From an uncultured Clostridia bacterium (GTDB lineage: Bacteria; Bacillota; Clostridia; Christensenellales; Borkfalkiaceae): a DNA stretch of 41,381 bases. The notes below the pieces were generated by a model. The model was not told where the DNA came from. It did no database searches and saw only the letters and a program-made list of their open reading frames with translations. This document shows positions 14,200 through 41,228 of this stretch, piece after piece. Within the stretch, counting starts at the first letter, position 1, and the number at the start of each line of letters is the position of its first letter. Location: the NCBI GenBank assembly GCA_944328495.1, contig CALVHR010000018.1:1-41381 (forward strand). Reading direction: 5' to 3'. A program made the translations under genes and the position numbers.

Positions 14200-14314
14200 C
14201 CGCCTGCGGGCGTGATCGGTTTCAGACAAGGGCGGCAGGGAGACCTGTGCGTCCGGTTTCTGCTCCGGCGTCGTCGGGGCAGTCTGTTTTTTCGGGCCGG
14301 TGACAGGAGAAGAT

Positions 14315-16486: not shown

Positions 16487-16865
16487 TCTCGCATTTCTCG
16501 GCAAGCTGGTGCCTGCGAAATGCCGAGATATTCAGGGGAAACCCGAACGGCTTTCCCCTCAACGCGGCATAGAATAGGGGCACACATAGTATCGAAATGC
16601 CGCGTTTTCACCCTTTCCGTGAGCCTTCGGCAAATCGGGGGAAAAAGCCAAAAGTGTGATTTCGGCTTTTTCAGTTAATATTTAATAATTTTGGCGCGTT
16701 CCAAAATCGCAATTTTGGATAAGCGCACTCAATTTGTCGCATACCTGCGACCTCAAGCGGGTGAATGCGGCGCGCATAATGTGGTGTGCCCTCAAAGGGC
16801 GCGCCGCAGAGGGCAGAGCCCTCAAATCACGACTTTTTCTTTCGTCAGCTCGAAAGAAAAAGTGT
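16487..16865. repeat. Multi-hairpin intergenic repeat, copy A
   Basis: This 379-bp non-coding element fills the 406-bp gap between priA and def and recurs in inverted orientation at 33216-33590 with roughly 85-90% identity by eye. It is a chain of hairpins: a stem near 16487-16528 (TCTCGCATTTC / GAAATGCCGAGA), one with arms AACGCGGCAT / ATGCCGCGTT, one with GAAAAAGCC / GGCTTTTTC, one with CCAAAAT / ATTTTGG, one with GTCGC / GCGAC, one with GCGGCGCGC / GCGCGCCGC, one with GAGGGC / GCCCTC, and a terminal ACTTTTTCTTTCG / CGAAAGAAAAAGT. It starts 6 bp after priA and ends 11 bp before the def ribosome site. I do not recognise a named family. It could be a MITE-like element or a structured RNA. Confidence 0.9.
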
Positions 16866-16886
16866 GAATCGGTTTTGGGAGGTATT

Positions 16887-17345
16887 ATGGCAATCCGCAA
16901 TGTTGTGCAGGAAGGAGACGAAGTCCTGCGTAAAAAATGTTTTGAAGTGACGGCTTTCGATGAAAAGCTTTTCCAGCTCCTCGACGATATGAAAGACACC
17001 GTCCGCAAGGAAGAGGGCGCGGGGCTTGCCGCGCCGCAGGTGGGCGTTTTGCGCCGCGCCGTGGTCGTGGACGTGAGCGAGGGATTTTATGAGCTGATCA
17101 ATCCCGTCATTGTTGAAAGCAAGGGCGAGCAGACGGGCTGGGAGGGATGCCTTTCGGTGCGCGGCAAGCGCGGCGTGGTAACCCGCCCCATGATCGTGAA
17201 AGTGGAGTATTCCGACCGCAAAGGCAAGCGCAAAAAGCTGGTGGCGCGCGGATTTTTTGCGCGCGCGGTGTGTCATGAACTTGACCATCTTGACGGCGTG
17301 CTGTACACCGACCGCGCCGAGCGCGTCGAACGCGTTCGCGATTGA
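16887..17345 (+). CDS. def: Peptide deformylase
   Basis: Metal-dependent enzyme removing the formyl group from new proteins. The ATG at 16887 follows GGGAGG (16877-16882); an in-frame extension upstream would be encoded by the repeat element and is rejected. The 152-residue product has the three deformylase motifs: GAGLAAPQVG, EGCLS with metal ligand Cys88, and HELDH with His130, catalytic Glu131 and His134. fmt follows 11 bp later, the standard def-fmt pair: Fmt adds and Def removes the formyl group. The upstream structured repeat may affect how def is transcribed from the priA side. Confidence 0.96.
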   Translation: MAIRNVVQEGDEVLRKKCFEVTAFDEKLFQLLDDMKDTVRKEEGAGLAAPQVGVLRRAVVVDVSEGFYELINPVIVESKGEQTGWEGCLSVRGKRGVVTRPMIVKVEYSDRKGKRKKLVARGFFARAVCHELDHLDGVLYTDRAERVERVRD

Positions 17346-17356
17346 AGGAGAAGCCC

Positions 17357-18289
17357 ATGAAGATAGCATATGCGGGCGCGCCCGCGTTTTCCGTTTCGCC
17401 GTTGCGGGCGATCCTCGAAGCGGGGTATCCGGTTTCTGCGGTCATCACCCAACCCGACAAACCTGTCGGGAGAAAGGGCGTGCTTACGCCCACGCCTCTC
17501 AAAGCGTTTGCGGCGGAGCGGGGTATTCCCGTATATACCTTTCAAAAGATCCGCGACTGCGCCGACGAGGTGCGCGCGATCGGCGCGGACGTTCTCGTCA
17601 CTTGCGCGTACGGACAGATCCTGACGCAGGAAATTTTGGACGCATTTTCGCAGGGCGTGTATAACATCCATGCCTCGTTGCTTCCGCGTTGGAGGGGGGC
17701 GTCTCCCATTCAGCACGCCATCCTCGCGGGTGATCGGGTGACGGGCGTCACGATCATGCGCACCGATATCGGACTCGATACGGGCGACATGCTCCGTGTC
17801 GGCGAAACTGCGATTTCGGAGGATGACACGGCGGAAACGCTTGCCTTGCGCCTGACCGATCTCGGCGGAAAGCTGATCGTGGAGGCGCTGAAAGATCTGG
17901 AAGCGGGCAGGGCTGTGTTTACAAAGCAGAACGAAGACACGGCGACCTTATGCAAGAAGATCAAAAAGCAAGACTGCGCGCTGGATTTAAAAAAGAGCGC
18001 CGATGAATTGTGCCGCCTGATCCGCGCGATGAATCCCGAGCCCTTGGCATTTACGCGTCTGCACGGCAAACTGGTCAATGTTTTTTTTGCCGAAGCTTTA
18101 AACGATAATGCCGCAGGCGCGATAGGGGAAGTTGTGCGCGCGGATAAGACGGGAATATATGTAAAGGCAGGCGCGGGGATATTGAAGATCGTGCAGATGC
18201 AACTGGAAGGCGGCAAAAAGCTGTCTGCCTGCGACCTTGTGAACGGCAGGAAAGTTGTTGTCGGCGACGTGTTCGGGAGCGAAGCATGA
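17357..18289 (+). CDS. fmt: Methionyl-tRNA formyltransferase
   Basis: Transfers a formyl group from 10-formyl-tetrahydrofolate to initiator Met-tRNA. The ATG at 17357 follows AAGGAGAA and gives MKIAYAGAPAFSV; 310 residues is the usual length. The hallmark is the active-site segment NIHASLLPRWRGASPIQ followed by TGVTIMRTDIGLDTGDML, and the C-terminal tRNA-binding domain is present. Its stop codon overlaps the rsmB start (ATGA), indicating translational coupling. Confidence 0.96.
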   Translation: MKIAYAGAPAFSVSPLRAILEAGYPVSAVITQPDKPVGRKGVLTPTPLKAFAAERGIPVYTFQKIRDCADEVRAIGADVLVTCAYGQILTQEILDAFSQGVYNIHASLLPRWRGASPIQHAILAGDRVTGVTIMRTDIGLDTGDMLRVGETAISEDDTAETLALRLTDLGGKLIVEALKDLEAGRAVFTKQNEDTATLCKKIKKQDCALDLKKSADELCRLIRAMNPEPLAFTRLHGKLVNVFFAEALNDNAAGAIGEVVRADKTGIYVKAGAGILKIVQMQLEGGKKLSACDLVNGRKVVVGDVFGSEA

Positions 18290-19527
18290 CCAATCCGCTC
18301 TACGATCCGTTTGCGGTCCTGCAAAAAGTGTACGGCGGGGGCGCTTTTTTAAAACAGGCGCTCGCGGACACGCCCGTCGAGGAGCTCAACCGAGCGCGCA
18401 CCGTGCGCATCTGTTACGGCGTGCTGGAAAACGATCTGTATCTGGATCATTGCATCCGTACGTTTGCGCCCAAAAATCCGAAACTTCCCGTGCGGATCCT
18501 TTTAAAAGTCGCGCTGTATATGCTTTTATTTTTGGAAAAGCCGAAATATATGGTCACGGACAACGCTGTGGCTCTTTTGAAAAAACTGGGCAAGGGCGGC
18601 GCTTCGGGGTTTGTGAACGCCTTTCTGCGCGCATTCGACGCGCAGAAATTGCAGTTTCCTGCGGACAAGGTTTCGGCGCTTTCTTTGCAATATTCCTATC
18701 CCGTTTTCGCGGTGCGAAAGCTCCTTGCCGAATACGGAAAGGATGCAGAGGAAATTATGAGCCATCGCCCCGCGCGCACGTTTGTGCGCTTTGCAAATGC
18801 CGCGGCGGCGGAAAAATACCTCGCGGCGGGAGAATACGAGCCGACGCCCTTTCAAAATGTGTATGCCTTTGCGCATTTTCGCCGCGACGGCGGATACGAT
18901 GCGGGGGAATATACCTTTCAGTCGGTGGGTTCGGTCGCGATCTGCCATTGCGTCGAACCTGTGGAGTCGATGCTGGACGCATGTGCCGCGCCGGGCGGAA
19001 AGAGCGTGCTTCTTGCGGGAAAATGCGGCAAAGTGACGGCATTCGAACTGCACGAACACCGCGCACAGCTCATACGGGCGTATGCTTTGCGCATGGGCGC
19101 GGGGAATATCGAAGTCGTGTGCCGCGATTCATCCGCGTATGACGAAACGTACAGAGAAAAATTTGACGCCGTGCTTGTGGATGCGCCGTGTTCCGGATAC
19201 GGCGTAGTCGCGGAGAATCCGGATATCAAACTGTTCCGCAAGGAAGAAGACATTGCCGCGCTCGCAAACACCCAGCGCGCGATTCTTTGCGCCTGTGCGG
19301 AATACGTGAAAGAGGGCGGCGCGCTGTACTATTCGACCTGCTCGGTGTTCGGGGAGGAAAACGACGTGACGGCGGGCGCATTTTTAAAAAGCCGTCCCGA
19401 CTTTTCGCCGCAGACACTCGATTGCCCTTTGGGACATATGCGGAAAAAGTACGGATTGCAGTTTTTGCCGCATTTGTCAATGGGAGCGGGTTTTTATGTC
19501 GCAAAATTTATAAGGAGTCGCACATGA
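18286..19527 (+). CDS. rsmB: 16S rRNA (cytosine-967-C5) methyltransferase RsmB
   Basis: Methylates C967 of 16S rRNA using S-adenosylmethionine. The 413-residue protein has an N-terminal NusB-like RNA-binding domain (~1-140), then the methyltransferase fold: SAM motif DACAAPGGK (~226), DAPCSG with Cys302, and YSTCSV with catalytic Cys352. Starts and stops overlap its neighbours by ATGA on both sides, so fmt-rsmB-rlmN are translationally coupled. The NusB part is somewhat divergent but complete. Confidence 0.95.
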   Translation: MTNPLYDPFAVLQKVYGGGAFLKQALADTPVEELNRARTVRICYGVLENDLYLDHCIRTFAPKNPKLPVRILLKVALYMLLFLEKPKYMVTDNAVALLKKLGKGGASGFVNAFLRAFDAQKLQFPADKVSALSLQYSYPVFAVRKLLAEYGKDAEEIMSHRPARTFVRFANAAAAEKYLAAGEYEPTPFQNVYAFAHFRRDGGYDAGEYTFQSVGSVAICHCVEPVESMLDACAAPGGKSVLLAGKCGKVTAFELHEHRAQLIRAYALRMGAGNIEVVCRDSSAYDETYREKFDAVLVDAPCSGYGVVAENPDIKLFRKEEDIAALANTQRAILCACAEYVKEGGALYYSTCSVFGEENDVTAGAFLKSRPDFSPQTLDCPLGHMRKKYGLQFLPHLSMGAGFYVAKFIRSRT

Positions 19528-20594
19528 AAGAGATCTTGCAGGATGCGTCCCGCGAAGAACTGGATGCGTTGTGCGCGGAAATGGGTGAAAAGAAATTTCG
19601 CGCCGATCAGCTGTACCGCGGTCTGATGCAGGGCAAAAAAATTTCGGAGATCCCGGGGCTTTCCAAAGAATTCCGCGCGCGGCTTGCGGAGCGGTTTGAG
19701 GACGAGCCCGTGCGCATCCGCGAGGTGTTCCGCTCTTCGGACGGCACCGAAAAATATCTTTTTGAGCTTGCGGACGGAAACCTCGTCGAAGGGGTGCTCA
19801 TGTCCTATAAATACGGAAAAACGCAGTGCGTTTCCACGCAGGTGGGGTGCCGCATGAACTGTGCGTTCTGCGCTTCGGGACTGAACGGACTCGTGCGCAA
19901 TCTCACGGCGGGGGAGATCCTGTCGCAGATTCTCGTCGTCAATGCGCGGGCGGGCGGAGGCGTGGAAAAGCGTGCCGTGACCAACGTCGTGCTCATGGGG
20001 AGCGGCGAGCCTTTGGACAACTACGATAATACGGTGCGGTTTTTGAAAAATGTGACGGCGGCGGGCGGCATCTGCATCAGTGCGCGCAATATTTCCCTTT
20101 CCACCTGCGGGCTGGTGCCGAAAATGTACGATCTTGCCGAAGAGGGGGTACCCGTCAATCTGACGGTATCCCTGCATTCGCCGACGGATGAGGAACGCGA
20201 GCGCATCATGCCCGTTGCAAAGGCGTACAAGATTGCCGATATTTTAAAGGCGTGCGATCATTATTTTAAAAAGACGGGCAGGCGGTACATCTTTGAATAT
20301 TCCCTCATTGCGGGAGAGAATGCGGACGCGGCGCATGCCGAGCGGCTGATCTCGATTTTGAAAGGCAGGCCCTGTCACGTCAATCTCATCCGTCTCAACG
20401 AAGTGAAGGAAAAAAACTTGCGCGGCATATCGGAGAAGGATGCGTACCGCTTTTTGGGACTTTTGGAAAAGGGCGGACTGTCGGCGACGCTGCGCCGCCA
20501 GATCGGCGCGGATATCGGCGGGGCGTGCGGGCAGTTGCGCGCCGGTTACATCGAAAAGAATGCGGAAGGGACGGGCGAGACCTGCCCCGAATAA
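19524..20594 (+). CDS. rlmN: Dual-specificity 23S rRNA/tRNA adenine-C2 methyltransferase RlmN
   Basis: Radical-SAM enzyme methylating A2503 of 23S rRNA and A37 of some tRNAs. The 356-residue product carries the iron-sulfur motif CRMNCAFC (Cys109, 113, 116), the GSGEPLDNYDN segment, and two further conserved cysteines, in SLSTCGLVPKMY and in GGACGQLRAGY (Cys335), as expected for the methyl-carrying mechanism. AAGGAG precedes the ATG, which overlaps the rsmB stop. In Bacillus prpC, prkC and rsgA lie between rlmN and rpe; here rpe follows directly. Confidence 0.96.
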   Translation: MKEILQDASREELDALCAEMGEKKFRADQLYRGLMQGKKISEIPGLSKEFRARLAERFEDEPVRIREVFRSSDGTEKYLFELADGNLVEGVLMSYKYGKTQCVSTQVGCRMNCAFCASGLNGLVRNLTAGEILSQILVVNARAGGGVEKRAVTNVVLMGSGEPLDNYDNTVRFLKNVTAAGGICISARNISLSTCGLVPKMYDLAEEGVPVNLTVSLHSPTDEERERIMPVAKAYKIADILKACDHYFKKTGRRYIFEYSLIAGENADAAHAERLISILKGRPCHVNLIRLNEVKEKNLRGISEKDAYRFLGLLEKGGLSATLRRQIGADIGGACGQLRAGYIEKNAEGTGETCPE

Positions 20595-20604
20595 GGAGAA
20601 TACC

Positions 20605-21267
20605 ATGGGAAAAAAAGTTCTGATCGCGCCTTCTATTCTGTCTGCGGATTTCGCGGCGATGGGTGAGGCGGTACAAAAATTGGAAACGTGCGGCGCGGAC
20701 CTTCTGCATTGCGACGTGATGGACGGGACGTTCGTTTCGCGCATTACGTTCGGTTCGCAGATGGTCGGGGCCGTGAAAAAGCACACGTCGCTTCCGCTGG
20801 ACGTACATCTGATGGTGGTCAATCCCATCGATAAAGTGAAAGATTTTGCGGAGGCGGGTGCGGATTATATCACCGTGCACGTCGAAGCGTGCGGCGAGCG
20901 GCTGAAAGAGACGCTGGAACATATCCGTTCTTTCGGCGTAAAGTGCGGCGCGGTCATCAGTCCCGACACCCCGTTTTCCGCGGCGGAAAAAGCGATGGAG
21001 CTTTGCGACATGTTCCTTGTGATGAGCGTTTATCCGGGGCTCGGCGGACAGAAATTTATCGAGCGTACTTTGCCCAAGGCGGAAGAGGCGCGTAAATTTT
21101 TGGATGCGCACGGGCTGGATGCGCGGCTGGAAATCGACGGCGGCATCACCGAGGAGAATGCGCGCCGCGTGATCGATGCGGGCGTGGACGTGCTTGTGGC
21201 GGGCAATACCGTATTTAAGGCGGCGGATATGGCAAAGACCATTGCGGCTTTGCGGTGCGGCAGATGA
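20605..21267 (+). CDS. rpe: Ribulose-phosphate 3-epimerase
   Basis: Interconverts ribulose 5-phosphate and xylulose 5-phosphate in the pentose phosphate pathway. The ATG at 20605 follows AAGGAGAA; the 220-residue TIM barrel shows APSILSADF, CDVMDGTFV, LDVHLMVVNP, MSVYPGLGGQKF, LEIDGGI and VAGNTVF, with the two metal-binding His and two Asp positions in these motifs. Its stop overlaps the start of thiN. Confidence 0.96.
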   Translation: MGKKVLIAPSILSADFAAMGEAVQKLETCGADLLHCDVMDGTFVSRITFGSQMVGAVKKHTSLPLDVHLMVVNPIDKVKDFAEAGADYITVHVEACGERLKETLEHIRSFGVKCGAVISPDTPFSAAEKAMELCDMFLVMSVYPGLGGQKFIERTLPKAEEARKFLDAHGLDARLEIDGGITEENARRVIDAGVDVLVAGNTVFKAADMAKTIAALRCGR

Positions 21268-21866
21268 AGGGGATCATTCTGCTCAACGGCGAACCGTATC
21301 GCGGAAAAATCGACGCAGAAGACGCATTTGTGATCTGCTGTGACGGCGCGCTCAAAAGCGCGAATGTCCCCATTGACGTGATTGCGGGCGATTTTGATTC
21401 GCTGGGGTATGTGCCCGAAGGCGGCGTCGTGTACCCTTCCGAAAAGGATTTTACCGACGGCGAGATCGCGCTGGAAATGCTGCTTGCCAAGGGCATACGC
21501 GACATTATTATTTATGGCGGCGGAGGCGGGCGCGAAGATCATCTGTTCGGGAATATGCAGCTTTTGGTCGCGGCGCACAGGCGCGGAGCGTTTGCAATGC
21601 TGCGCACAAATTATACGGATATTTATTGCGCGGAAGGCGAAATTTGCTGGCGAGACAAACGCGGCAAGACCCTTTCGCTCGCACCCGTCGGGGAGAGTGC
21701 GCATATAATGGAGAGTGAGGGGCTGAAATATCCCCTGTGCGATCTCACGCTCGCGGCGGGAAGCTGCCGCGGCATCAGCAACGTGATCGAAAAGGACGCG
21801 GCACGCATCGTTTGCGATGACGGTGTCCTGTTCGTGTTTGAAGTGACGGAGGAAGCAAAATGGTAA
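21264..21866 (+). CDS. thiN: Thiamine pyrophosphokinase
   Basis: Makes thiamine pyrophosphate from thiamine and ATP. The 200-residue protein contains the family motifs VICCDGALKSA, VIAGDFDSLG, EKDFTDGEIALEM and YGGGGGREDHLFGN. The ATG overlaps the rpe stop. Its last seven bases overlap the start of a 25-codon SpoVM-like gene, as thiN lies near spoVM in Bacillus. Confidence 0.93.
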   Translation: MKGIILLNGEPYRGKIDAEDAFVICCDGALKSANVPIDVIAGDFDSLGYVPEGGVVYPSEKDFTDGEIALEMLLAKGIRDIIIYGGGGGREDHLFGNMQLLVAAHRRGAFAMLRTNYTDIYCAEGEICWRDKRGKTLSLAPVGESAHIMESEGLKYPLCDLTLAAGSCRGISNVIEKDAARIVCDDGVLFVFEVTEEAKW

Positions 21867-21937
21867 AGATCATTTGTGTCAGGCCGCCCGCACCCGTGCG
21901 CGCGGTATTGCGCCTTCTGGTTGCGAAGGGGAACTGA
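21860..21937 (+). CDS. spoVM: SpoVM-like sporulation microprotein (candidate)
   Basis: A 25-codon gene overlapping the end of thiN. An ideal ribosome site GGAGG (21848-21852) lies 7 nt before ATG 21860. The product starts MVKIICVRPP and continues into a short amphipathic, basic helix (PVRAVLRLLVAKGN). SpoVM of Bacillus is a 26-residue amphipathic peptide that recognises the curved forespore membrane and recruits SpoIVA for coat assembly; it has a proline near the middle before the helix, as here. Position supports the call: in Bacillus spoVM lies after thiN and before an oppositely oriented rpmB and yloU, exactly the order here. Sequence identity is low, so context carries much of the weight. 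Confidence 0.72.
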   Translation: MVKIICVRPPAPVRAVLRLLVAKGN

Positions 21938-21956
21938 CAGCCTCACAAAAGAAAAA

Positions 21957-21980
21957 ACAGCCGCCTTTCGGGGCGGCTGT
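21957..21980 (-). terminator. Hairpin after spoVM, best as minus-strand terminator
   Basis: A 9-bp stem ACAGCCGCC (21957-21965) / GGCGGCTGT (21972-21980) has a TTTCGG loop. Read on the minus strand it is followed by a T6 run, so it would stop transcription coming from rpmB; on the plus strand the tail (CGGTTTAT) is weaker. Confidence 0.65.
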
Positions 21981-22000
21981 CGGTTTATAAAGTAAAAAGG

Positions 22001-22043
22001 CGCGCCCGCGGCGCCGCTTCAAGCGGCGCCGCGGGCGCGTTTG
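22001..22043. terminator. Long GC-rich hairpin terminator
   Basis: A near-perfect palindrome with 19-nt arms (22001-22019 and 22021-22039) centred on C22020. It is followed by a T-rich stretch on the plus strand and by CCTTTTT on the minus strand, so it can end both the plus-strand cluster and the convergent rpmB transcript. Confidence 0.85.
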
Positions 22044-22113
22044 TATTTTGTTTTATTATTTACTTTCAAAAACTTTGCGCGGTGCGATCGTGCATTCTTT
22101 GCACGCCGCGAAA

Positions 22114-22142
22114 AAAAGGCACTTCCTAAGGAAGAGCCTTTT
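22114..22142 (-). terminator. Terminator of rpmB
   Basis: Minus-strand hairpin: AAAAGGC, a mismatch, CTTCC, loop TTA, GGAAG, a mismatch, GCC, then a run of seven T residues. It lies 23 bp past the rpmB stop codon. Confidence 0.8.
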
Positions 22143-22164
22143 ACCGTTCGTGTTGTTTGTGAAA

Positions 22165-22353
22165 TTACGCGCGCTCTACTTTGTCGCTTTTCAGGCAACG
22201 GGCGCATACATATGCGGATTCCACTTTGCCGTCCTTGACGATTTTCACTTTCTGCACGTTCGCGTTGAACGTCCTTTTCGTCTTGCGGTTGCTGTGGCTC
22301 ACGTTGTTTCCTGCGCTCTGGCCCTTGTTGCATACGCTGCATACTCTCGACAT
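22165..22353 (-). CDS. rpmB: 50S ribosomal protein L28
   Basis: Small 50S subunit protein. The ATG at 22353 follows GGAGGT at 7 nt, giving 62 residues beginning MSRVCSVCNKG. The L28 signature NNVSHSNRKTKRTFNANVQKV is present. Two CxxC pairs (CSVC and CARC) make this the zinc-binding form. It is transcribed opposite to its neighbours, as I recall it also is in Bacillus, and has its own promoter and terminators. Confidence 0.96.
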   Translation of the reverse strand: MSRVCSVCNKGQSAGNNVSHSNRKTKRTFNANVQKVKIVKDGKVESAYVCARCLKSDKVERA

Positions 22354-22423
22354 ATCTATCACCTCCGCGGTTGTAATCGGTGTATCGGGCGAAAAAAGCG
22401 CTCCGCCCTAAACGAGCGTTACT

Positions 22424-22460
22424 ACTATATCAAAATCGATAAAAAAAAGCAATCGATTTT
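22424..22460 (-). promoter_or_regulatory. rpmB promoter with flanking inverted repeat
   Basis: Minus-strand -35 TTGCTT (reverse of 22447-22452), 17 bp, -10 TATAGT (reverse of 22424-22429). A 9-bp inverted repeat AAAATCGAT (22432-22440) / ATCGATTTT (22452-22460) straddles the -35 and the spacer, separated by an A-rich stretch. It may be a protein-binding site; this is not proven. Confidence 0.65.
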
Positions 22461-22522
22461 GCGCGCTTTTGCATAAAATTTCCCGAAAAAGAAAAAAAAC
22501 GGCGTATATATAAAAATTTCTC

Positions 22523-22551
22523 TTGCAAAACGGGGAAAAATAGTATAAAAT
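22523..22551 (+). promoter_or_regulatory. yloU-fakA promoter
   Basis: TTGCAA (22523-22528), 17 bp, TAAAAT (22546-22551). It points at the Asp23/YloU gene and lies about 70 bp upstream of, and divergent from, the rpmB promoter. Confidence 0.65.
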
Positions 22552-22576
22552 ATCTGTGATACGGGAGCATGGTTTT

Positions 22577-22927
22577 ATGTCTGTAAACACGAGCAATGCC
22601 TACGGCAAAATCACAATTTCGGATATGGCGATCGCGAAGGTCGCATCGCAGGCGGCGATGGAATGTTACGGCATCGTCGAAACTGTTTCGCGCCGTTTTA
22701 CCGACAGCGTTTCGGAATTGTTTCACAAACAGCCGCAGGGCAAGGGCGTAAAGGTTACGACCTACGGAGACAGGATCTATATCGACGTGTATGTCATTAT
22801 TAAATTCGGCGTATCGATCAATGCAGTTGCCGAATCGCTCAAAGAGGGCGTGAAATACAGGGTCGAAAAATTCACGGGCATGATTGTCGACACGGTGAAT
22901 GTAAATATCATCGGGGTGCGGCTCTGA
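22577..22927 (+). CDS. Asp23/Gls24 (YloU)-family protein
   Basis: Member of the Asp23/YloU family, cell-envelope-associated proteins of unclear function that usually accompany fakA/yloV. The ATG at 22577 follows GGGAG; the 116-residue product begins MSVNTSNAYGKITISDMAIA and includes GIVETVSRRF, then GKGVKVTTYGDRIYIDVYVI and the C-terminal VDTVNVNIIGVRL strand typical of the family. It begins the unit with fakA, 39 bp downstream. Confidence 0.92.
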   Translation: MSVNTSNAYGKITISDMAIAKVASQAAMECYGIVETVSRRFTDSVSELFHKQPQGKGVKVTTYGDRIYIDVYVIIKFGVSINAVAESLKEGVKYRVEKFTGMIVDTVNVNIIGVRL

Positions 22928-22966
22928 TCGCCCGTTTTTCCCGTTATTGAAGGAGAAAGCATTTCA

Positions 22967-24610: not shown

Positions 24611-24626
24611 ACAAAAGCATAAGATG

Positions 24627-24651
24627 CGGCGGGGCCATCCCGCCGTTTTTT
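24627..24651 (+). terminator. Terminator after fakA
   Basis: Stem CGGCGGG (24627-24633) / CCCGCCG (24639-24645), 5-nt loop, then T6. It lies 16 bp past the fakA stop. Confidence 0.82.
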
Positions 24652-24705
24652 GATAGCGGGCGAAAGCCGGCGGCGTTTAAAAACGTAAAAAAAGAGGGGA
24701 GAGGC

Positions 24706-26718: not shown

Positions 26719-26724
26719 TTTTTG

Positions 26725-26756
26725 CCCGCCGCTTGCCTGGCAAGCGGCGGGTTTTT
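26725..26756 (+). terminator. Terminator of recG
   Basis: A 12-bp perfect stem CCCGCCGCTTGC (26725-26736) / GCAAGCGGCGGG (26740-26751) with a 3-nt loop, followed by T5. It closes the housekeeping block. Confidence 0.92.
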
Positions 26757-26839
26757 CTGTTTTTGAAAGCTTTTCTATTTGTAAAAATAGCAAAGTTGAT
26801 CGAATTTCTCGCGCGTGCGCGTGTATGGCGCGCGTTTTA

Positions 26840-26869
26840 TTGACAGGACATGCGTTCGCATGGTATAAT
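26840..26869 (+). promoter_or_regulatory. Histidine operon promoter with palindromic spacer
   Basis: Both boxes are perfect consensus: TTGACA (26840-26845) and TATAAT (26864-26869), 18 bp apart. The spacer holds the palindrome CATGCG-TT-CGCATG (26849-26862). A repressor bound there would block RNA polymerase, a reasonable control for an otherwise very strong promoter. Transcription would start near 26876, about 94 nt before hisZ. Confidence 0.85.
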
Positions 26870-26909
26870 ATTTCGGAAAAACAAGCAAAAAATTTTTGCA
26901 AAAAGTCTG

Positions 26910-26946
26910 TATTTATGCGCGCAGTGCGGAATAAACCGCATAAATA
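26910..26946 (+). other. Leader hairpin in the histidine operon 5' UTR
   Basis: Perfect 10-bp arms TATTTATGCG (26910-26919) and CGCATAAATA (26937-26946) enclose a 17-nt loop; a second small palindrome (GCAAAAA/TTTTTGC) lies upstream near 26885. The leader is too short for a T-box, I see no run of His codons, and no terminator tail follows the stem. Its role is unknown; it may shape translation of hisZ. Confidence 0.45.
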
Positions 26947-26969
26947 TACAAAATTGGCGAGGGAAGACG

Positions 26970-27953
26970 ATGTCTTATTATAAATTGCCGTCGGGGGTGC
27001 GCGACGTATTGCCCGACGAATGTGAAAAGCTGGACGCCGCGGAAGAGATCCTGCGCGGCAAATTCAAAGGAGCGGGATTCCGCTTTGTGCGTTCGGCGGG
27101 ACTGGAATATTACGACACATACGCCTGCATCAAGAGTACGGTCGCGCAGACCAAGATGTTCAAACTTACGGACAAGGACGGAAATCTGATCGTTCTGCGG
27201 CCGGATATGACCTTGGCGTGCGCGCGCATTGCGGCGACAAAACTGCACGAGGAGCGGGCAAAACTTTGCTATTTCACGCAGGTGTATGACTTATCGGCGG
27301 GCGGGAATTCCGATCGCGAAGTCGCACAAGCGGGCGTGGAAGTATTCGGCGAGAGGGGTGCCCGTGCGGATGCGGAGATCATAGCGTTTGCCGTCGATTG
27401 CCTCAAAGCGGTCGGACTGAAAAAATTTATCGTGGACATCGGGCACGTCGGCTTCTATAAAGGGCTTTTGGAAGAGAGCGGACTGCGCGAAGAAGACGCG
27501 GAAGAGATCCGTGCTTATATTAACGCAAAAGATCAGGTCAATACCGAGCTTGCCTTAAAAAAACTGGGAGCAGGCAAAAAAGCGCAGGCGGCGATTTTGG
27601 CGCTTCCGTCGCTGTTCGGCGGCGCGGAAGTTTTGTCCGAAGCGGAAAAACTTACGGATAACGCCCTTGCGCGCGAGTCGCTCGCGCATTTGCAGGAAGT
27701 ATACGCTTATCTGAAAAAAGCGCGCGTGGACGAGTATGTATCTTTCGACCTCGGAACCGTCAAGAGTCTTTCGTACTATTCGGGCATGGTCTTTACGGGG
27801 CTCGCGGAAGGCGTGGGCGCTTCGGTGCTTTCAGGCGGCAGATACGACGGGCTTTGCGCTCAGTTTGGAAAAGATCTTCCTGCGGTCGGTTTTGCAGTCG
27901 GAATGATGCGCGTTCTGCGCGCGTTGCAGAACAAGGAGGGCGGTATATGCTGA
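26970..27953 (+). CDS. hisZ: ATP phosphoribosyltransferase regulatory subunit HisZ
   Basis: HisRS-like protein that pairs with short-form HisG to form the histidine-sensitive first enzyme of the pathway. ATG 26970 lies after GAGGGAAG; the frame extends upstream through the promoter, which rules out earlier starts. The 327-residue protein is shorter than a histidyl-tRNA synthetase and lacks the anticodon-binding domain. It keeps class-II motifs (LPSGVRDVLPDE, VLRPDMTLACARI, SGGRYDGL). Immediate linkage to a 209-residue HisG supports HisZ over a synthetase. It overlaps hisG by 7 bp. Confidence 0.93.
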   Translation: MSYYKLPSGVRDVLPDECEKLDAAEEILRGKFKGAGFRFVRSAGLEYYDTYACIKSTVAQTKMFKLTDKDGNLIVLRPDMTLACARIAATKLHEERAKLCYFTQVYDLSAGGNSDREVAQAGVEVFGERGARADAEIIAFAVDCLKAVGLKKFIVDIGHVGFYKGLLEESGLREEDAEEIRAYINAKDQVNTELALKKLGAGKKAQAAILALPSLFGGAEVLSEAEKLTDNALARESLAHLQEVYAYLKKARVDEYVSFDLGTVKSLSYYSGMVFTGLAEGVGASVLSGGRYDGLCAQFGKDLPAVGFAVGMMRVLRALQNKEGGIC

Positions 27954-28576
27954 ATGTAGCGCTTGCCAAGGGACGGCTTGCCGAATCTTGCGCGGACATA
28001 TTTATCAAATGCGGCATCCGTGCCGAAGTCTTAAAGGAAGAGACGCGCAAATTAGTGTTGGAAACGCCGGACGGCGCATTCAAATTTTTCTTTGTGAAGC
28101 CTGCGGACGTGCCGACGTACGTTGAATACGGCATTGCCGACATCGGCGTGGTAGGGAAGGATACCCTTCTCGAAGCGGACGCGGACTTGTATGAAATGCT
28201 CGATCTGGGCTTTGAAAAGTGCAGGCTGAGCCTGGCCGGCTTTCCGGATGCGAAGGAAAAATTGCACGGATCGCACCTGCGCGTTGCGACCAAATATGTC
28301 AACCTCGCGAAAAAGTTGTTCTTGACCCGCGGCGAAGATGTAGAGATCATCAAGCTCAACGGTTCCATTGAACTTGCGCCGCTGACGGGGCTTGCGGACG
28401 TCATTTTCGATATCGTTCAGTCGGGCGGGACATTGCGTGCGAACGGATTGGTCGTGTTAGAAGATGTTTTTGATATTTCCGCGCGGCTGATCGCGAACAA
28501 AGTCAGCCTGAAAACCAAAGCGGCGGAGATCTTGCCGCTTCTTTCGGAAATGAAAAAATATATCGGGCAAGCATAA
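27947..28576 (+). CDS. hisG: ATP phosphoribosyltransferase, short form
   Basis: Catalyses the first step of histidine synthesis, joining ATP and PRPP. The 209-residue product is the short form that lacks the C-terminal regulatory domain and needs HisZ. Motifs include LNVALAKGRLAE, GIADIGVVGKDTL, and the PRPP-site region IIKLNGSIELAPLTGLADVI followed by DIVQSGGTLRANGL. AAGGAGGG precedes ATG 27947, which overlaps the hisZ end. Confidence 0.96.
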   Translation: MLNVALAKGRLAESCADIFIKCGIRAEVLKEETRKLVLETPDGAFKFFFVKPADVPTYVEYGIADIGVVGKDTLLEADADLYEMLDLGFEKCRLSLAGFPDAKEKLHGSHLRVATKYVNLAKKLFLTRGEDVEIIKLNGSIELAPLTGLADVIFDIVQSGGTLRANGLVVLEDVFDISARLIANKVSLKTKAAEILPLLSEMKKYIGQA

Positions 28577-28585
28577 GAGGAAAAC

Positions 28586-29857
28586 ATGAAAATTTATAAA
28601 AATCCCGCGGAGGCGGAGAGCATTCTCTCACGCGGTAAATTTGACGATGAAAAGGCTGCGGCTGCGGTGCGCGCGATCGTTGCGGCGGTGCGCGAAAAAA
28701 AGGACGAAGCACTGTTTTCATACAGTGAGCAGTTTGACGGTTCCCGCCTGACGGCGGAAACGGTGTGCGTGAGCGACGCGGAATTCGCCGCGGCGTACGA
28801 ACAGGTGGATGAGGCGTTCATTGCTTCGCTTCGCAAGGCGGCAAAGAACGTCTACGAGTATCATTGCCGTTCGCCGAAGACGCAGGACGTGCGCACGCAA
28901 AACGGCCGTACGACGGGGTATGTGGTGCGCGCGGTGGAGCGCGCGGGCATCTATGTTCCGGGCGGCACGGCGCCCTTGTCCAGTTCGGTGCTGATGGGCG
29001 TTCTGCCCGCAAAGGCGGCGGGAGTAGAGCATATCTACGTCTGTACGCCGGCGAAAAACGGAAAGATCGAACCCGCTATTTTGGTTGCGGCAAAGGAATG
29101 CGGTGCGGAAAAGGTGTTTAAAGTGGGCGGTGCGCAGGCGATCGCGGCGCTCGCGTACGGGACGCAGAGCATTCCGAAAGCGGACGTCATCGCGGGACCC
29201 GGCAATATCTTCGTCACCCTCGCCAAAAAGGAAGTATACGGTGAAGTGGGATTGGACATGCTTGCGGGGCCTTCGGAAATTCTCATCGTTGCGGACAATA
29301 AGCAAAATCCCGAATTTGTGGCGGCGGATGTTCTGTCGCAGGCGGAGCACGACAAACTTGCGCGCGCCCTGCTCATTACCGACGACGCGGCATTTGCCGA
29401 AAAAGTACAGGCGGAAGTGGAACGTCAGCTTGCTCTTTTGCCGCGCAGAGACATTGCGGCATATTCCTGCGAACATGCGGGCGGTATCATTCTGGTGAAG
29501 GACATGGACGAGGCGGTGGATCTCGCCAACAAAATTGCGCCCGAGCATCTCGAACTCGCCGTGGAAAATTGTGACGAACTTTTGCCGAAGATAAAAAATG
29601 CGGGCGCGGTGTTCTTGGGGGCGTGGACGCCCGAGCCCGTCGGCGATTATTTCGCGGGGCCCGACCATACTCTGCCTACGGGCGGCTCGGCGCGCTTTTT
29701 CGAAGTGCTCAACCAGGACGTGTTTTTGCGCAAAATGAGCGTCATCAAATATACGCGCGAGGCGATCGAAGAGGACGGCGAGGACATTGTGCGCCTTGCG
29801 GAAAGCGAACATCTCGGCGCGCATGCGAATGCGGTGCGCGTCCGTTTAAAAAAATAA
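28586..29857 (+). CDS. hisD: Histidinol dehydrogenase
   Basis: NAD-dependent, zinc-containing enzyme for the last two oxidations, histidinol to histidine. The 423-residue product has the hallmarks: RAGIYVPGGTAPLSSSVLM, KVGGAQAIAALAYGTQSIP, the DVIAGPGNIFVTLAKKEVYG signature, LDMLAGPSEILIVAD, QAEHD and IAPEHLEL, then the zinc and product-site region DYFAGPDHTLPTGGSARF. It begins 9 bp after hisG. In many operons hisC follows; here a short gap with a hairpin and then hisB. Confidence 0.97.
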   Translation: MKIYKNPAEAESILSRGKFDDEKAAAAVRAIVAAVREKKDEALFSYSEQFDGSRLTAETVCVSDAEFAAAYEQVDEAFIASLRKAAKNVYEYHCRSPKTQDVRTQNGRTTGYVVRAVERAGIYVPGGTAPLSSSVLMGVLPAKAAGVEHIYVCTPAKNGKIEPAILVAAKECGAEKVFKVGGAQAIAALAYGTQSIPKADVIAGPGNIFVTLAKKEVYGEVGLDMLAGPSEILIVADNKQNPEFVAADVLSQAEHDKLARALLITDDAAFAEKVQAEVERQLALLPRRDIAAYSCEHAGGIILVKDMDEAVDLANKIAPEHLELAVENCDELLPKIKNAGAVFLGAWTPEPVGDYFAGPDHTLPTGGSARFFEVLNQDVFLRKMSVIKYTREAIEEDGEDIVRLAESEHLGAHANAVRVRLKK

Positions 29858-29863
29858 CAATGC

Positions 29864-29887
29864 CGCCCGCGCCGAATGGCGCGGGCG
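29864..29887 (+). other. Intercistronic GC-rich hairpin between hisD and hisB
   Basis: A 10-bp perfect stem CGCCCGCGCC (29864-29873) / GGCGCGGGCG (29878-29887) with a GAAT loop. No T run follows, so it is not an intrinsic terminator. It could protect or cut the operon mRNA, a common role of such stems. Confidence 0.6.
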
Positions 29888-29909
29888 AAAGCACAGGGAG
29901 GAAACAGGA

Positions 29910-30485
29910 ATGCGTACAGCCGAAATTTCCCGCAAAACGCGTGAAACGGATATTTCGCTCAAACTCGATTTGGACGGCAAGGGGCTCAATTCCGTCGATA
30001 CGGGTGTGGGATTTTTGAACCATATGCTCGAACTTTTGAGTGTGCATTCGGGAATGGATTTGCAGATCAAATGCACGGGAGATATTGACGTGGATTTCCA
30101 CCATAGCGTGGAAGACGTCGGAATCTGTCTCGGTCAGGCATTCAAAACGGCGCTCGGCGACAAGAAGGGCATCGCCCGTTTTGCCGACCGCATCGTGCCG
30201 ATGGATGAATGTGCCGCGCTTGTCGCGCTGGACATCAGCGGCAGACCGTATCTCAATTTCGAGCAAAAACTTTCGGGCAAGATCGGCGAATTCGATGCCG
30301 AACTCGTCGAAGAGTTTTTGCGCGCATTTTCGTTCAATGCGGGCGTGAATCTGTATGTGCAGCTTCTCAAAGGCGGCAACATGCATCACGAAGCGGAAGC
30401 TATTTTCAAGGCTTTTGCCAAATGTGTGCAGGATGCGGTGAAGATCGTATCCGACTCCGTCCCGTCCTCCAAAGGGGTGCTGTAA
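29910..30485 (+). CDS. hisB: Imidazoleglycerol-phosphate dehydratase
   Basis: Removes water from imidazole glycerol phosphate to give imidazole acetol phosphate. The 191-residue protein is the single-function form; it lacks the HAD-type histidinol phosphatase domain fused in enterobacteria. Metal-binding motifs are VDFHHSVEDVG and NMHHEAEAIFKAFA, with LDGKGLNSVDTGVGFLNHML at the N-terminus. GGGAGG lies upstream. hisH begins directly after its stop codon. Confidence 0.97.
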   Translation: MRTAEISRKTRETDISLKLDLDGKGLNSVDTGVGFLNHMLELLSVHSGMDLQIKCTGDIDVDFHHSVEDVGICLGQAFKTALGDKKGIARFADRIVPMDECAALVALDISGRPYLNFEQKLSGKIGEFDAELVEEFLRAFSFNAGVNLYVQLLKGGNMHHEAEAIFKAFAKCVQDAVKIVSDSVPSSKGVL

Positions 30486-31073
30486 ATGATCGGCATCGTC
30501 GATTACGGCGCGGGGAACCTGCGTTCGGTGCAAAAGGCTTTGGAGGCGATCGGCGAGCGAGCGGTCGTTTCGGGCGAAACGAGGGCGCTGGACGGTTGCG
30601 ATAAGCTGATTTTGCCGGGTGTCGGTTCTTTCGGCGCGGGCATGGCGGAACTCTGCGCGCGCGGACTGGATACATACGTGAAAGAGCGCGTGCGGGACAC
30701 GAAATTGCTCGGCATATGCCTCGGGATGCAGTTTTTGCTGGAAAAAAGCTTTGAAGACGGCGAGTATGCGGGCCTCGGGCTTGTGAAGGGACAGGTCGTT
30801 CGCTTTTGCGAGGGCAAGATCCCGCAGATCGGCTGGAACGAAGTGCACGACCTCAAAACGCCGCTGTTTGACGGCATTGCAGAGGGTACGCGCTTTTATT
30901 TCGTGCACAGTTACCGCGCCGACTGCGCGGACAGGTTTGCCTGTGCCAAGACCGAATATTTTGTCGAGTATCCGTCGGCGGTGTACAGCGGAAACGCGTA
31001 CGGGGTGCAGTTTCATCCCGAAAAGAGCGGCGAGGCAGGTTTAAGGCTTTTGAAAAATTTTTGCGCAATGTGA
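30486..31073 (+). CDS. hisH: Imidazole glycerol phosphate synthase, glutaminase subunit
   Basis: Class-I glutamine amidotransferase that hands ammonia to HisF. The catalytic triad is visible: Cys78 in GICLGMQFL, His177 and Glu179 in VQFHPEKSG. The oxyanion segment LPGVGSFGAGM and the central HSYRADC block fit the family; 195 residues is usual. The ATG follows the hisB stop without a gap, so translation is probably coupled. Confidence 0.97.
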   Translation: MIGIVDYGAGNLRSVQKALEAIGERAVVSGETRALDGCDKLILPGVGSFGAGMAELCARGLDTYVKERVRDTKLLGICLGMQFLLEKSFEDGEYAGLGLVKGQVVRFCEGKIPQIGWNEVHDLKTPLFDGIAEGTRFYFVHSYRADCADRFACAKTEYFVEYPSAVYSGNAYGVQFHPEKSGEAGLRLLKNFCAM

Positions 31074-31113
31074 GCGCGATGAGGACAATGACAACGCAAA
31101 AGGAGAATTTATC

Positions 31114-31827
31114 ATGATTTTATTTCCTGCGATCGATATTTTGAACGGCAAGGCGGTGCGCCTGTACAAGGGCGACAAAAATCAGGTGACCGAGTACGGC
31201 GATCCCGTCGAGTTTGCGGAAAAATGGGCGGAAGCGGGCGCCGAATGGCTGCATATCGTTGACCTTTCGGGCGCGTTCACGGGCGAGAGCGGCATCGACG
31301 ATATCATCAGCGAAATCAAGAAACATGTAGACGTCAGGATACAGAGCGGCGGCGGGCTGCGCAGGATCGTGGATATCCGCAGACGTTTGGACGCTGGCGC
31401 GGACCGCGCGGTCATCGGCACGATGGCGGCATACCATCCCGACGATTTTGCGCTTGCGACCTACCAATTTCCCGAAAAGATCGTGGCGGGCATCGACGCG
31501 AAGGACGGAATGTTCGCGGTCAAAGGCTGGACGGAAACGACGGATATCTCCGCGATCGAATTCGGGAAAAAATGTAAACATATGCACATTCGTTATGCGC
31601 TGTATACCGATATTTCCAAGGACGGCGCCATGGAAGGCGCAAATGTAGAGGGCACGGCGCAGATGCAGGAAGAAACCGGGCTGTCGATCATTGCTTCGGG
31701 CGGCATTTCTTCGATGCAGGACGTGCTCGCACTGAAAGCAAAAAACATTTACGGTGCGGTGCTCGGCAAAGCGCTCTATGACGGAAAGATCGATCTGAAA
31801 GAAGCGCTTGCGGCGGCGCGCGCATAA
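31114..31827 (+). CDS. hisA: ProFAR isomerase HisA
   Basis: Amadori isomerase of the pathway, an eight-fold TIM barrel of 237 residues. The first catalytic Asp is Asp8 ([14 protein letters not shown]) and the second is Asp128 in GIDAKDG. Two phosphate-binding sites are readable: [11 protein letters not shown] and [24 protein letters not shown] precedes the ATG, 40 bp after hisH. Confidence 0.96.
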
Positions 31828-31837
31828 GGAAATGACA

Positions 31838-32602
31838 ATGCTTGCAAAGAGGATCATACCCTGCCTGGATATTGACAAAGGGCGGGTTGTCAAAGGAGTC
31901 AACTTTGTCAATTTAATCGATGCGGGCGATCCCGTGGAGATCGCCAAGGCGTACGACAAGATCGGCGCGGACGAGATCGTGTTTTTGGATATTACTGCTT
32001 CCAGTGACGGAAGAAAGACTGCCGTCGACATTTTAAGCCGTGCCAGCGAGCAGGTATTTATTCCGCTGACGGTGGGCGGCGGTATTCGTTCAACGGAAGA
32101 TTTCCGTGAACTTTTGGCGGCGGGCGCGGACAAGATCGCCGTCAATTCTGCGGCGATCCGCAATCCGTCCCTCATTACAGACGCAGCGCTCAAATTCGGT
32201 TCGCAATGCGTGGTGCTGGCGGTGGATGCAAAGCGCAACGAGCGTGGAAGCTGGGCCGTTTATCTCAACGGCGGCAGGGTGCGCACCGAACTGGATGCGA
32301 TCGAATGGATCCGCCGCGCAGAAAAATTGGGCGCGGGGGAAGTGCTTCTGACCAGTATGGACAGAGACGGCACAAAAGCGGGTTACGATCTCGAACTTAC
32401 GCGCGCCGCGGCGGATGCGGTAAATATTCCCGTCATAGCGTCGGGCGGCGCGGGAACGATGAAAGATTTTGCCGACGTTCTCACGGACGGAGGCGCAGAT
32501 GCGGCGCTCGCGGCATCGCTGTTCCATTTTTCGCAGATCGACATGAAAGAACTCAAAGAATATCTCGCGGGGCAGGGCATCCCGGTAAGGAAGGTTTATT
32601 AA
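31838..32602 (+). CDS. hisF: Imidazole glycerol phosphate synthase, cyclase subunit
   Basis: Synthase partner of HisH; makes imidazole glycerol phosphate and AICAR. Of two close ATG codons (31832 and 31838) I take 31838: AGGA then lies 7 nt upstream, and the catalytic residues fall at the family numbers Asp11 ([10 protein letters not shown]) and Asp130 (VVLAVDAK). Phosphate-binding loops are [12 protein letters not shown] and [13 protein letters not shown]. The 254-residue length is standard. Confidence 0.97.
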
Positions 32603-32605
32603 GAT

Positions 32606-33205
32606 ATGGAACAACTCAAATTTGACGAAAAGGGACTTGTCTGCGCCATTGCACAGGACTATGAGAGCGGCGAGGTACTGATGCAGGCGTACATGAACGA
32701 AGAAGCGTACAAAAAGACGCTGGAAACGGGTTACGCGCATTATTGGAGCCGTTCCCGCCGAAAATTATGGAAAAAAGGGGAAGAGAGCGGACATCTGCAA
32801 AAGGTGCGCGGAATATTTCTCGATTGCGATAAGGACTGTGTGCTCTTGAAGGTGGAACAGATCGGCGCGGCGTGCCATACGGGTAACTACACCTGTTTTT
32901 ATACCCCTATACAGGATTGCGGGGAAGGGGCGCCGATGCTCGGTGAATTGCAGCGCATTGTCGAGGACCGCAAAGCAAACCCCGAAGAGGGCAGCTATAC
33001 GGCGTATCTTTTTTCCAAGGGTGTGGATAAGATCGCGAAAAAGACAGGCGAAGAGGCTGTGGAATTGGTCATAGCGGCTAAGAATAAAAGCAAGGAAGAG
33101 ATCGTGGGCGAGTGCGCCGATCTTTTCTACCACACGCTTGTTCTTTTATGCGATGCGGGCGTGAAGCTTTCGGACGTATGCACGGAGCTGAAAAACAGAC
33201 ATTGA
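32606..33205 (+). CDS. hisIE: Bifunctional phosphoribosyl-AMP cyclohydrolase / phosphoribosyl-ATP pyrophosphatase
   Basis: Fused enzyme for steps two and three of histidine synthesis. Residues 1-~105 are HisI ([47 protein letters not shown] with zinc-binding Cys and His). Residues ~110-199 are HisE, an all-helical MazG-like domain ([34 protein letters not shown] with metal-binding Glu residues). It begins 3 bp after hisF and ends the operon; copy B of the structured repeat starts 10 bp after its stop. Confidence 0.96.
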
Positions 33206-33215
33206 GAAAGGGTTT

Positions 33216-33590
33216 ACACTTTTTCTTTCGAGCTGACGAAAGAAAAAGTCGTAATTTGAGGGCTCTGCCCTCTGCGGCGCACTTTTAGGGGCACGCCATA
33301 GTATGCGCGCCGCATTCACCCGCTTGAGGTCGCAGGCATGCGACAAATTGGGTGCGCTAATCCAAAATTGCGATTTTGGAACGCGCCAAAATTATTAAAT
33401 AATATCTGAAAAAGCCGAAATCACACTTTTGGCTTTTTCCCCCGATTTGCCGAAGGCTTACGGAAAGGGTGAAGTTGCGGCATTCAAAATATGTGTGCCA
33501 TTAAAAATGCCGCAACGAGGGGAAAGCGGTTCGGGTTTCCCCTAAAAATCTCGGCATTTCGCAGGCATCAGCTTGCCGAGAAATGCGAGA
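33216..33590. repeat. Multi-hairpin intergenic repeat, copy B (inverted)
   Basis: This 375-bp non-coding element is the reverse complement counterpart of 16487-16865 and fills most of the 405-bp gap between hisIE and the aldolase gene. All hairpins are kept. One stem has arms GTTGCGGCAT / ATGCCGCAAC (read in the copy A direction) where copy A has AACGCGGCAT / ATGCCGCGTT: three neighbouring base pairs changed on both sides with pairing preserved. The palindrome ACTTTTTCTTTCG / CGAAAGAAAAAGT (33219-33250 region) lies 13 bp after the hisIE stop. Orientation to flanking genes is opposite to copy A, so it does not need a fixed direction of transcription. Confidence 0.9.
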
Positions 33591-36784: not shown

Positions 36785-36813
36785 TTGAAATTTGTGTGGA
36801 TTTATATTAAAAT
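36785..36813 (+). promoter_or_regulatory. ppdK promoter
   Basis: TTGAAA (36785-36790), 17 bp, TAAAAT (36808-36813). The leader to the ppdK start is about 53 nt and carries CAGGAGGAG as ribosome site. Confidence 0.75.
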
Positions 36814-36872
36814 AGATAATGTTGGTATAGGCAAGAAAATAATTTCAATCTTATCAGGAGGAGAAATTTTTT

Positions 36873-39509: not shown

Positions 39510-39534
39510 GCAAAAAATATAAATAATATGACAG

Positions 39535-39565
39535 ACGGCAGTCCGAAGCATCGGACTGCCGTTTT
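39535..39565 (+). terminator. Terminator of ppdK
   Basis: A 12-bp perfect stem ACGGCAGTCCGA (39535-39546) / TCGGACTGCCGT (39551-39562) with an AGCA loop and a short T tail. It lies just upstream of the next lipoprotein's ribosome site. Confidence 0.85.
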
Positions 39566-40150: not shown

Positions 40151-40228
40151 ACGGTGAAGTATTTTTTCGTTGCAGGACATATTGTTTTGGGCGCTAAAAA
40201 GGCGAAAACAGTTTTTTGTGAGTTATTT

Positions 40229-41166: not shown

Positions 41167-41228
41167 TGAGGAAATCGATTTATTAAAGACAATAAATTTA
41201 CAAAAAATCAGGTAAAGGTCTAGTAATC

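Follow-up and report, generated by a model that had tools for sequence, protein, structure and literature searches.

The 41,381-nt stretch of Borkfalkiaceae DNA analysed here (contig CALVHR010000018.1; hereafter, the window) carries two gene-free chains of hairpins in inverted orientation, and the question raised by this pair is whether they represent a non-autonomous mobile element, a genome-wide structured RNA or a transcription-boundary element, the three possibilities named in a first-pass annotation of the window. The two copies align over their full length, as that annotation had noticed (33216-33590 on the minus strand against 16487-16865, with 91% identity). We see about an even chance that they belong to a non-autonomous, mosaic family of interspersed DNA elements that is recognised as folded single-stranded DNA, inserts between genes and is remodelled by gain and loss of units. 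In broad kind, the element is a non-autonomous mosaic extragenic palindromic repeat, a known kind that includes bacterial interspersed mosaic elements (BIMEs), BOX and miniature inverted-repeat transposable elements (MITEs). The combination of a five-hairpin module, head-to-head dimers, a bulged strand-specific terminal hairpin and covariation that shows no preference for wobble pairs appears, as far as tested, to be unmatched in the families with which it was compared.

The basic unit is about 185 nt long, and each window copy of about 380 bp consists of two units joined head-to-head around an A+T-rich centre, as became clear when the two halves of a copy were aligned with one of them reverse-complemented. 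In the sense direction, the unit runs from an A+T-rich head through hairpins E, D, C and B to a terminal hairpin, T. Hairpin D is small, and the outer pairing that closes it (CACYC/GGGTG) is helix 3 of the covariance model R1, below. Hairpin C lies directly after GTGAA and before GAGG, and hairpin B exists in three lengths (short, medium and long). Being an inverted dimer, each copy contains ten hairpins in two mirror-image sets of five; the chain of hairpins first described thus stands, but not its number, given as about eight. The limits first assigned to the copies also hold, with the refinement that the outer hairpins reach to about 16867 and 33213. On the plus strand, the folds of the two copies have z-scores of -8.45 and -8.35 relative to shuffled sequences, and none of 100 shuffles was as good for either copy. 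A covariance model of the half unit, which was built from halves like the four in the window, detected all four of them (E ≤ 6.2e-26) and one weak extra match (E = 0.017).

Units occur as singles, direct tandems and head-to-head pairs. Among 80 distinct junctions (neighbouring units each longer than 120 nt, junction shorter than 60 nt), 43 were direct tandem (11-47 nt) and 37 head-to-head (5-46 nt, 36 of them 5-12 nt), and none was tail-to-tail. Single units often, though not always, have a T-like hairpin ahead of the head (68 free heads, judged by eye). The C region can contain a structured insert of 124-128 nt or a second C-B-T piece; the subfamily with the insert was found at L102:1151-1486, L032:1117-1454, L040:1224-1564 and L094:946-1245, in three congeners (G026 twice, G011 and G034). 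A second repeat type of about 150 bp, 'J', with three copies around L253:16950-17560, abuts A+T-rich heads (L253:16900-17560, L255:2165-2400), and at one orthologous site it replaces the T-B-C part with the same boundary just past the stop codon. Another palindromic family, of the CATTCTGAGCG / CTCGGGATGACA type, lies inside or beside hairpin elements at L084:1100-1240, L253:2000-2100 and L268:12400-13050.

The nucleotide and covariance searches of the whole genome (2.12 Mb in 56 contigs) and of its relatives showed that copies are far more numerous than two. By nucleotide search, 32 of 61 genomes matched: the genome of the window and 31 of its 36 congeners, but none of 24 from other families of the order. 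The covariance model R1 covers hairpins E-D-C with a structure supplied by hand, since a MAFFT alignment with RNAalifold had given only 16 pairs because the length variants of hairpin B were misaligned. With R1, 37 of 40 Borkfalkia genomes were positive (E ≤ 0.001) and contained at least 1,341 halves, 35 of them in the window's genome; this total is a lower bound, at most 89 candidates having been scored per genome. The copy number among congeners ranges from zero (three of the 40 genomes) to at least 89, and ten of the 40 have at most six. Under stricter filters, the order gave matches in 25 of 297 genomes (E ≤ 0.001), which come from 7 of 125 genera and include two of Borkfalkia, and in the class as a whole matches were obtained in 4 of 391 genomes (E ≤ 0.0001), three of which were already in the order sample and one of which had a single weak match outside the order. 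The full design is visible in genus g26 of the same family, head-to-head dimer and tandem included. The elements of families f6, f14 and f24 are graded as probable relatives because the core alone (E loop, GGGTGAA, hairpin, GAGGGG) is recognisable in them. In the distant probable relatives at L200-L207 (f14, f6 and f24; genus g28) the E loop is kept, the GGGTGAA-hairpin-GAGGGG core is kept outside g28, and the flanking hairpins differ. An exact 32-base pattern of the element was found in 22 stretches, from uncultured Clostridia bins and Candidatus Borkfalkia stercoripullorum, and from this shared pattern the genus of the window is taken to be Candidatus Borkfalkia, order Christensenellales. 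A phage origin was rejected after viral contigs yielded no match to an exact 29-base pattern, but given the variability of the element this test has little power.

No named family with this layout had been known to the first-pass annotation, and this agrees with Rfam, which gave no match in the window at the gathering score; four loci searched by E-value gave five matches, all under the gathering score, and the one overlapping the element was a miRNA model (E = 0.6). As far as Rfam and the genome searches reach, therefore, the element is neither confined to two copies nor a member of a described family. Titles and abstract openings of the listed papers on Borkfalkia, Christensenellales repeats, gut Clostridia repetitive extragenic palindromes (REPs), interspersed palindromes and candidate structured RNAs contain no description of it. 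Thousands of candidate RNAs have been predicted in human microbiomes, according to PMC8040213, and the element may overlap with some of them under no name.

Species differ at shared sites. A search for def in the 40 genomes found it in 38, and 29 of the 30 loci fetched, including the window's own, had priA upstream. The space between priA and def was occupied in six of these 29 genomes, was a gap of 10-89 nt in 21 and a different gap of 177 nt in one, and held a remnant in one (G021), which consists of two terminal hairpins only, resembling those of G032 and G009. At hisIE, half-unit matches lay within the locus in 13 of 30 fetched loci. Among the genomes compared, G032 and G009 form the closest pair (98.4% in def). 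One junction has a three-unit array in G009 but in G032 just two abutting terminal hairpins, one of them truncated; at a second, G032 and G009 differ in unit number, with 2 (one truncated) against 3; a third carries a monomer and a flanking repeat in G032 that G009 lacks. Both have the priA-def dimer, the centre of which carries an inserted different palindrome in G009. Of 141 halves, 70 had their nearest relative in their own genome, with 12.4 expected by label chance, in a set of loci that was unevenly chosen and in which many were found through similarity to the window copy. The many copies per genome, the same T hairpin at the ends, the occupied and unoccupied sites and the within-genome similarity favour the first of the three possibilities, a non-autonomous mobile element.

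At which level, DNA or RNA, is the pairing kept? In 39 halves, 92.1% of 1,117 cells were paired and 240 were double-changed, compared with 81 after shuffling and 16-65 in slid registers. RNA stem variation normally passes through G-U. Among variable pairs of the element outside helix 3, however, G-U made up 0.8% and A-C 1.1% (6 to 8), whereas in the transfer-messenger RNA (tmRNA) of 30 genomes of the genus the corresponding values were 18.0% and 1.2% (211 to 14). Over all cells without helix 3, there were 11 G-U and 13 A-C of 961, against 447 and 17 of 2,669 in tmRNA, and 756 distinct hairpins contained 59 G-T, 47 A-C and 7,238 Watson-Crick pairs. The tmRNA control was used in place of a first control of 126 terminator-like hairpins from the same loci (G-T 20, A-C 12), which discriminates poorly and may include hairpins of the element. 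Because the stems covary strongly with almost no G-U, unlike the tmRNA of the genus, their pairing seems, on this comparison of sequences, to be kept at the DNA level and not as folded RNA, helix 3 perhaps excepted; selection on the DNA hairpin, whole-hairpin exchange or template switching could each be the means.

A regulatory or catalytic structured RNA present in many copies would account for the very strong covariation, the conserved loops and the z-scores near -8.4, and covariation strength by itself would have put the element down as RNA. But the wobble preference seen in tmRNA is missing outside helix 3, no Rfam family matches, and units occur in both orientations to transcription: head-to-head dimers place one half antisense, and in the window copy 2 is, as first noted, reversed relative to transcription, all four neighbouring genes being on the plus strand. 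We therefore regard the structured RNA as improbable. The ratio of G-U to A-C, set against the tmRNA of the same genomes, offers a simple comparative test of whether hairpins are constrained as DNA or as RNA.

The terminal hairpin was analysed in a set of 127 distinct T hairpins whose foot is TCAC or TCTC. In 124 of them a single unpaired 5' base sits just above the foot, and this strand-specific base is G in every one. The stems above the extrahelical G comprised 53 different 9-mers, with Watson-Crick pairing in 1,055 of 1,116 pairs (G-T 6, A-C 4), and the tip was TCAGC in 60 hairpins and its complement, GCTGA, in one. In a second set, picked by upstream context, 44 of 47 had an extrahelical base. 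A T-A or C-G pair above a triloop with a 3' bulge is the usual form of hairpin E (in one loop register, 174 of 260), and the remaining E hairpins look shifted by one base in this register. Enzymes acting on folded single-stranded DNA make use of strand-specific bulges and loops, as described for TnpA-REP, IS200/IS605 and IntI in PMC8266576, and it is from such features of T and E that we infer recognition of the element in this form.

The same data bear on a reading as passive DNA repeats, spread by a now-extinct element and persisting without a dedicated enzyme, in which the arms are kept complementary by template switching or whole-hairpin gene conversion and the units change by slippage and unequal recombination. 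It is documented that template switching can make compensatory changes in a single event (PMC8794818), and of 89 close unit pairs 41 had no stem difference, 32 showed double changes exclusively, 5 single changes exclusively and 11 a mixture; moreover, remnants end in hairpins, and the searches made found no enzyme. On the other side, the bulged G (124 of 127) and the 60 TCAGC tips to one GCTGA point to selection on a strand-specific shape, the tip alone being weak evidence because loop inversions are rare under template switching as well (PMC8794818). Congeners also differ in copy number, from 0 to at least 89. Of the 43 unit pairs with double or mixed changes, just 3 had a C loop that was at least 90% identical, and in 21 it was less than 70%, so that most of them have a simpler account than a template switch inside a single hairpin; whole-hairpin exchange between copies is a live alternative to it. 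Taken together, we find passive repeats unlikely, though well short of negligible.

As for an enzyme, a MITE-like or REPIN element moved by a Y1 transposase of the IS200/IS605 type (RAYT or insertion sequence, IS) is suggested by the likeness of the bulged, strand-specific hairpins to the ends of REP and IS200/IS605 (PMC8266576), and Y1 (PF01797) matches exist in 23 of the 40 genomes. But Y1 is missing from 9 of the 17 genomes with 30 or more copies and present in 7 of the 10 with six or fewer (Spearman with copy number -0.36, p = 0.022; genomes 66-96% complete). None of 20 Y1 loci fetched (L132-L151) had a half-unit match, and the GTAG or CGTC tag that defines the foot of REP hairpins (PMC3733652, PMC8266576) directly precedes the T foot in only 2 of 174 T hairpins. 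Movement by Y1 is thus highly improbable, and RAYT/Y1 was rejected as mobiliser on its negative association with copy number and on its loci. Integron integrase (TIGR02249) was likewise rejected, with none of the 40 genomes over the cut-off; none of 14 control genomes passed either, so this search has no positive control, and sub-threshold matches in 37 of the 40 are as expected of other tyrosine recombinases. The attC core boxes are RYYYAAC and GTTRRRY, and they were found in 0 and 1 of 174 T hairpins, respectively. No transposase was among the 25 most frequent of 162 Pfam families in 140 flanking proteins (of 216 open reading frames, ORFs, giving 158 representatives, 18 were dropped, mostly the shortest; proteins were trimmed to 330 aa). 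Recombinases other than these two may be the mobiliser.

The positions of 128 element clusters were compared with simple longest-ORF calls: 63 lay between co-directional, 19 between convergent and 18 between divergent ORFs (the last class being uncertain because the calls are simple), 27 lay at locus edges and one inside an ORF call. Many copies begin just past a stop codon, and the Pfam families seen among the neighbours are mostly those of housekeeping genes. A BIME-like operon modulator of transcription or mRNA stability, such as an attenuator or an RNase III or RNase E site useful to the host, agrees with these starts and with the 63 of 100 classifiable clusters between co-directional ORFs, and BIMEs, ERIC and Correia elements can act in this way (PMC3049150). 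Yet a simple pattern scan (loop limit 8 nt) found no terminator-like site inside either window element, 22 of 29 genomes do without the element at priA-def, copies number zero in 3 of 40 genomes and six or fewer in ten, and modulation would be an effect that leaves the spread unexplained; we consider this reading quite improbable. Nor do the missing terminator-like site and the co-directional majority lend support to the transcription-boundary element first proposed.

We return to the mobile element recognised as folded single-stranded DNA. Units would join head-to-head or head-to-tail, each with T at its tail. A unit would be recognised through its shape, the bulged base and the conserved tip, by a recombinase or transposase, and the element would then insert between genes and its copies be remodelled by gain and loss of units. 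Since complementarity alone would be read, the stems could vary freely, and the complementarity of the arms might be kept by selection on the DNA hairpin, replication template switching, whole-hairpin exchange or a mixture of these. More tentatively, and with a probability clearly below even, the units may be mobile non-coding cassettes read as folded single-stranded DNA by a recombinase that is neither RAYT nor integron integrase and that recognises the bulged-G T hairpin and the tips, with stem letters drifting under enforced complementarity and with diversification across several Christensenellales families.

Several points weigh against the mobile element so described. Helix 3, the outer pairing of D, is RNA-like, with U-G in 17 of 156 cells, which also counts for a structured RNA, and with it included the variable pairs have 2.5% G-U and 1.0% A-C (19 to 8). 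The 239 C stems count for pairing at the DNA level, with 1,884 of 1,912 pairs Watson-Crick (G-T 6, A-C 13), 76 different stems and 8 perfect pairs in 215 of them; but each was placed where pairing was best, and this raises the paired fraction, though not the ratio of G-T to A-C. The loci compared yielded no clean empty site whose intergenic flanks could be aligned; one element-free locus in G009 does not qualify because about 2 kb of adjacent sequence is missing as well. G032 and G009 differ most clearly inside the elements, and insertion at fresh sites is thus inferred from the gaps between species. No target-site duplication of fixed length was seen in 20 dimers (lengths 0-5), although their mean of 2.25, versus 1.24 shuffled, was reached in just 1 of 200 shuffles. 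Searches that were aimed at Y1 and integron integrase, not at generic tyrosine recombinases, brought up no mobilising enzyme.

The two window copies, their parts and the neighbouring genes are listed in the table. The tight fit between genes described in the first-pass annotation is real, copy 1 beginning 6 nt past the priA stop codon and ending about 10 nt before the def ribosome site.

Table. Features of the two dimers and of the genes that flank them (positions in the window)
Feature	Position	Strand	Basis or detail
Copy 1, inverted dimer (two five-hairpin modules, head-to-head), between priA and def	16487..16867		
Copy 1, left half unit	16487..16679	-	Sense on minus strand; nhmmer half-unit model; R1 match 16556-16673 minus
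Copy 1, left half hairpins	T 16487-16528, B 16534-16559, C 16561-16606, D ~16607-16640, E ~16641-16672		Boundaries from fold
Copy 1, A+T-rich centre	16673..16692		Common to both heads
Copy 1, right half unit	16693..16867	+	Sense on plus strand
Copy 1, right half hairpins	E+D 16693-16765, C 16766-16808, B 16809-16823, T 16827-16867		Boundaries by eye
Copy 1, right-half T design			TCAC foot, extrahelical G, variable stem, TCAGC tip
Copy 2, dimer as in copy 1 in opposite orientation, between hisIE and HMGL-like gene	33213..33590		
Copy 2, half unit equivalent to copy 1 right half	33213..33393	-	R1 match 33268-33387 minus
Copy 2, half unit equivalent to copy 1 left half	33401..33590	+	R1 match 33407-33521 plus
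priA, upstream of copy 1	14300..16480	+	Pfam PriA domains
def (peptide deformylase), downstream of copy 1	16887..17345	+	Pfam PF01327
hisIE, upstream of copy 2	32606..33205	+	Pfam PRA-CH and PRA-PH
HMGL-like (aldolase family) gene, downstream of copy 2	33611..34591	+	Pfam PF00682

Elsewhere in the window, a 53-nt terminator-like hairpin with a T-run is present in two copies of 96% identity (40224-40276 and 41224-41276), the starts of which are exactly 1,000 bp apart, with small ORFs bracketed between them. Long ORFs of 914 and 878 aa overlap on opposite strands (36807-39551, minus; 36873-39509, plus), and Pfam gave no match at 1e-5 for the one on the minus strand.

Among known systems, REP, BIME and REPIN resemble the Borkfalkia element in being high-copy extragenic palindromes arranged in mosaics of alternating orientation (here 43 tandem and 37 head-to-head junctions) and in the conserved bulge or loop of their hairpins, with strand-specific recognition on the REP side, according to the account in PMC8266576. 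However, a REP unit is a single hairpin of 20-40 nt, whereas the Borkfalkia unit has five different hairpins in about 185 nt, and the rarity of the GTAG/CGTC tag and the copy-rich genomes without Y1 separate it from REP/RAYT. The BOX element of Streptococcus (boxA-boxB(n)-boxC) is also composite, modular, foldable and intergenic, with variable internal modules, and is presumed to be non-autonomous (PMC3049150). Its description there includes no head-to-head dimers of one module, a distinction made by description and not by sequence, and BOX ends resemble an IS, whereas the Borkfalkia repeat has no known parent element. MITEs are similar in that the Borkfalkia element is short, gene-free, intergenic and present in many copies with inverted terminal parts. 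Unlike those of MITEs, its inverted halves are diverged modules and not near-identical terminal repeats, no target-site duplication of constant length was seen in the 20 dimers, although their mean length exceeds that of nearly all shuffles, and no parent transposon was found (transposon ends were not compared).

The attC sites of integrons are hairpins with extrahelical bases that are read by structure, each unit with its hairpin standing in directional tandem arrays. In contrast to integron cassettes, including clusters of attC sites lacking integrases (CALIN), Borkfalkia units are non-coding, form head-to-head dimers and (nearly) lack attC core boxes; the lack of an integrase over the cut-off sets them apart from integrons, though CALIN need none. 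What they have in common with attC is a strand-specific hairpin with an extrahelical base (124 of 127 T hairpins) and units that follow one another, each with its hairpin, in tandem arrays. The module would add to the repeats of gut bacteria a large interspersed family built on five hairpins, and if it is true that a recombinase reads these hairpins, they would represent a further use of folded single-stranded DNA beside RAYT/IS200 and IntI.

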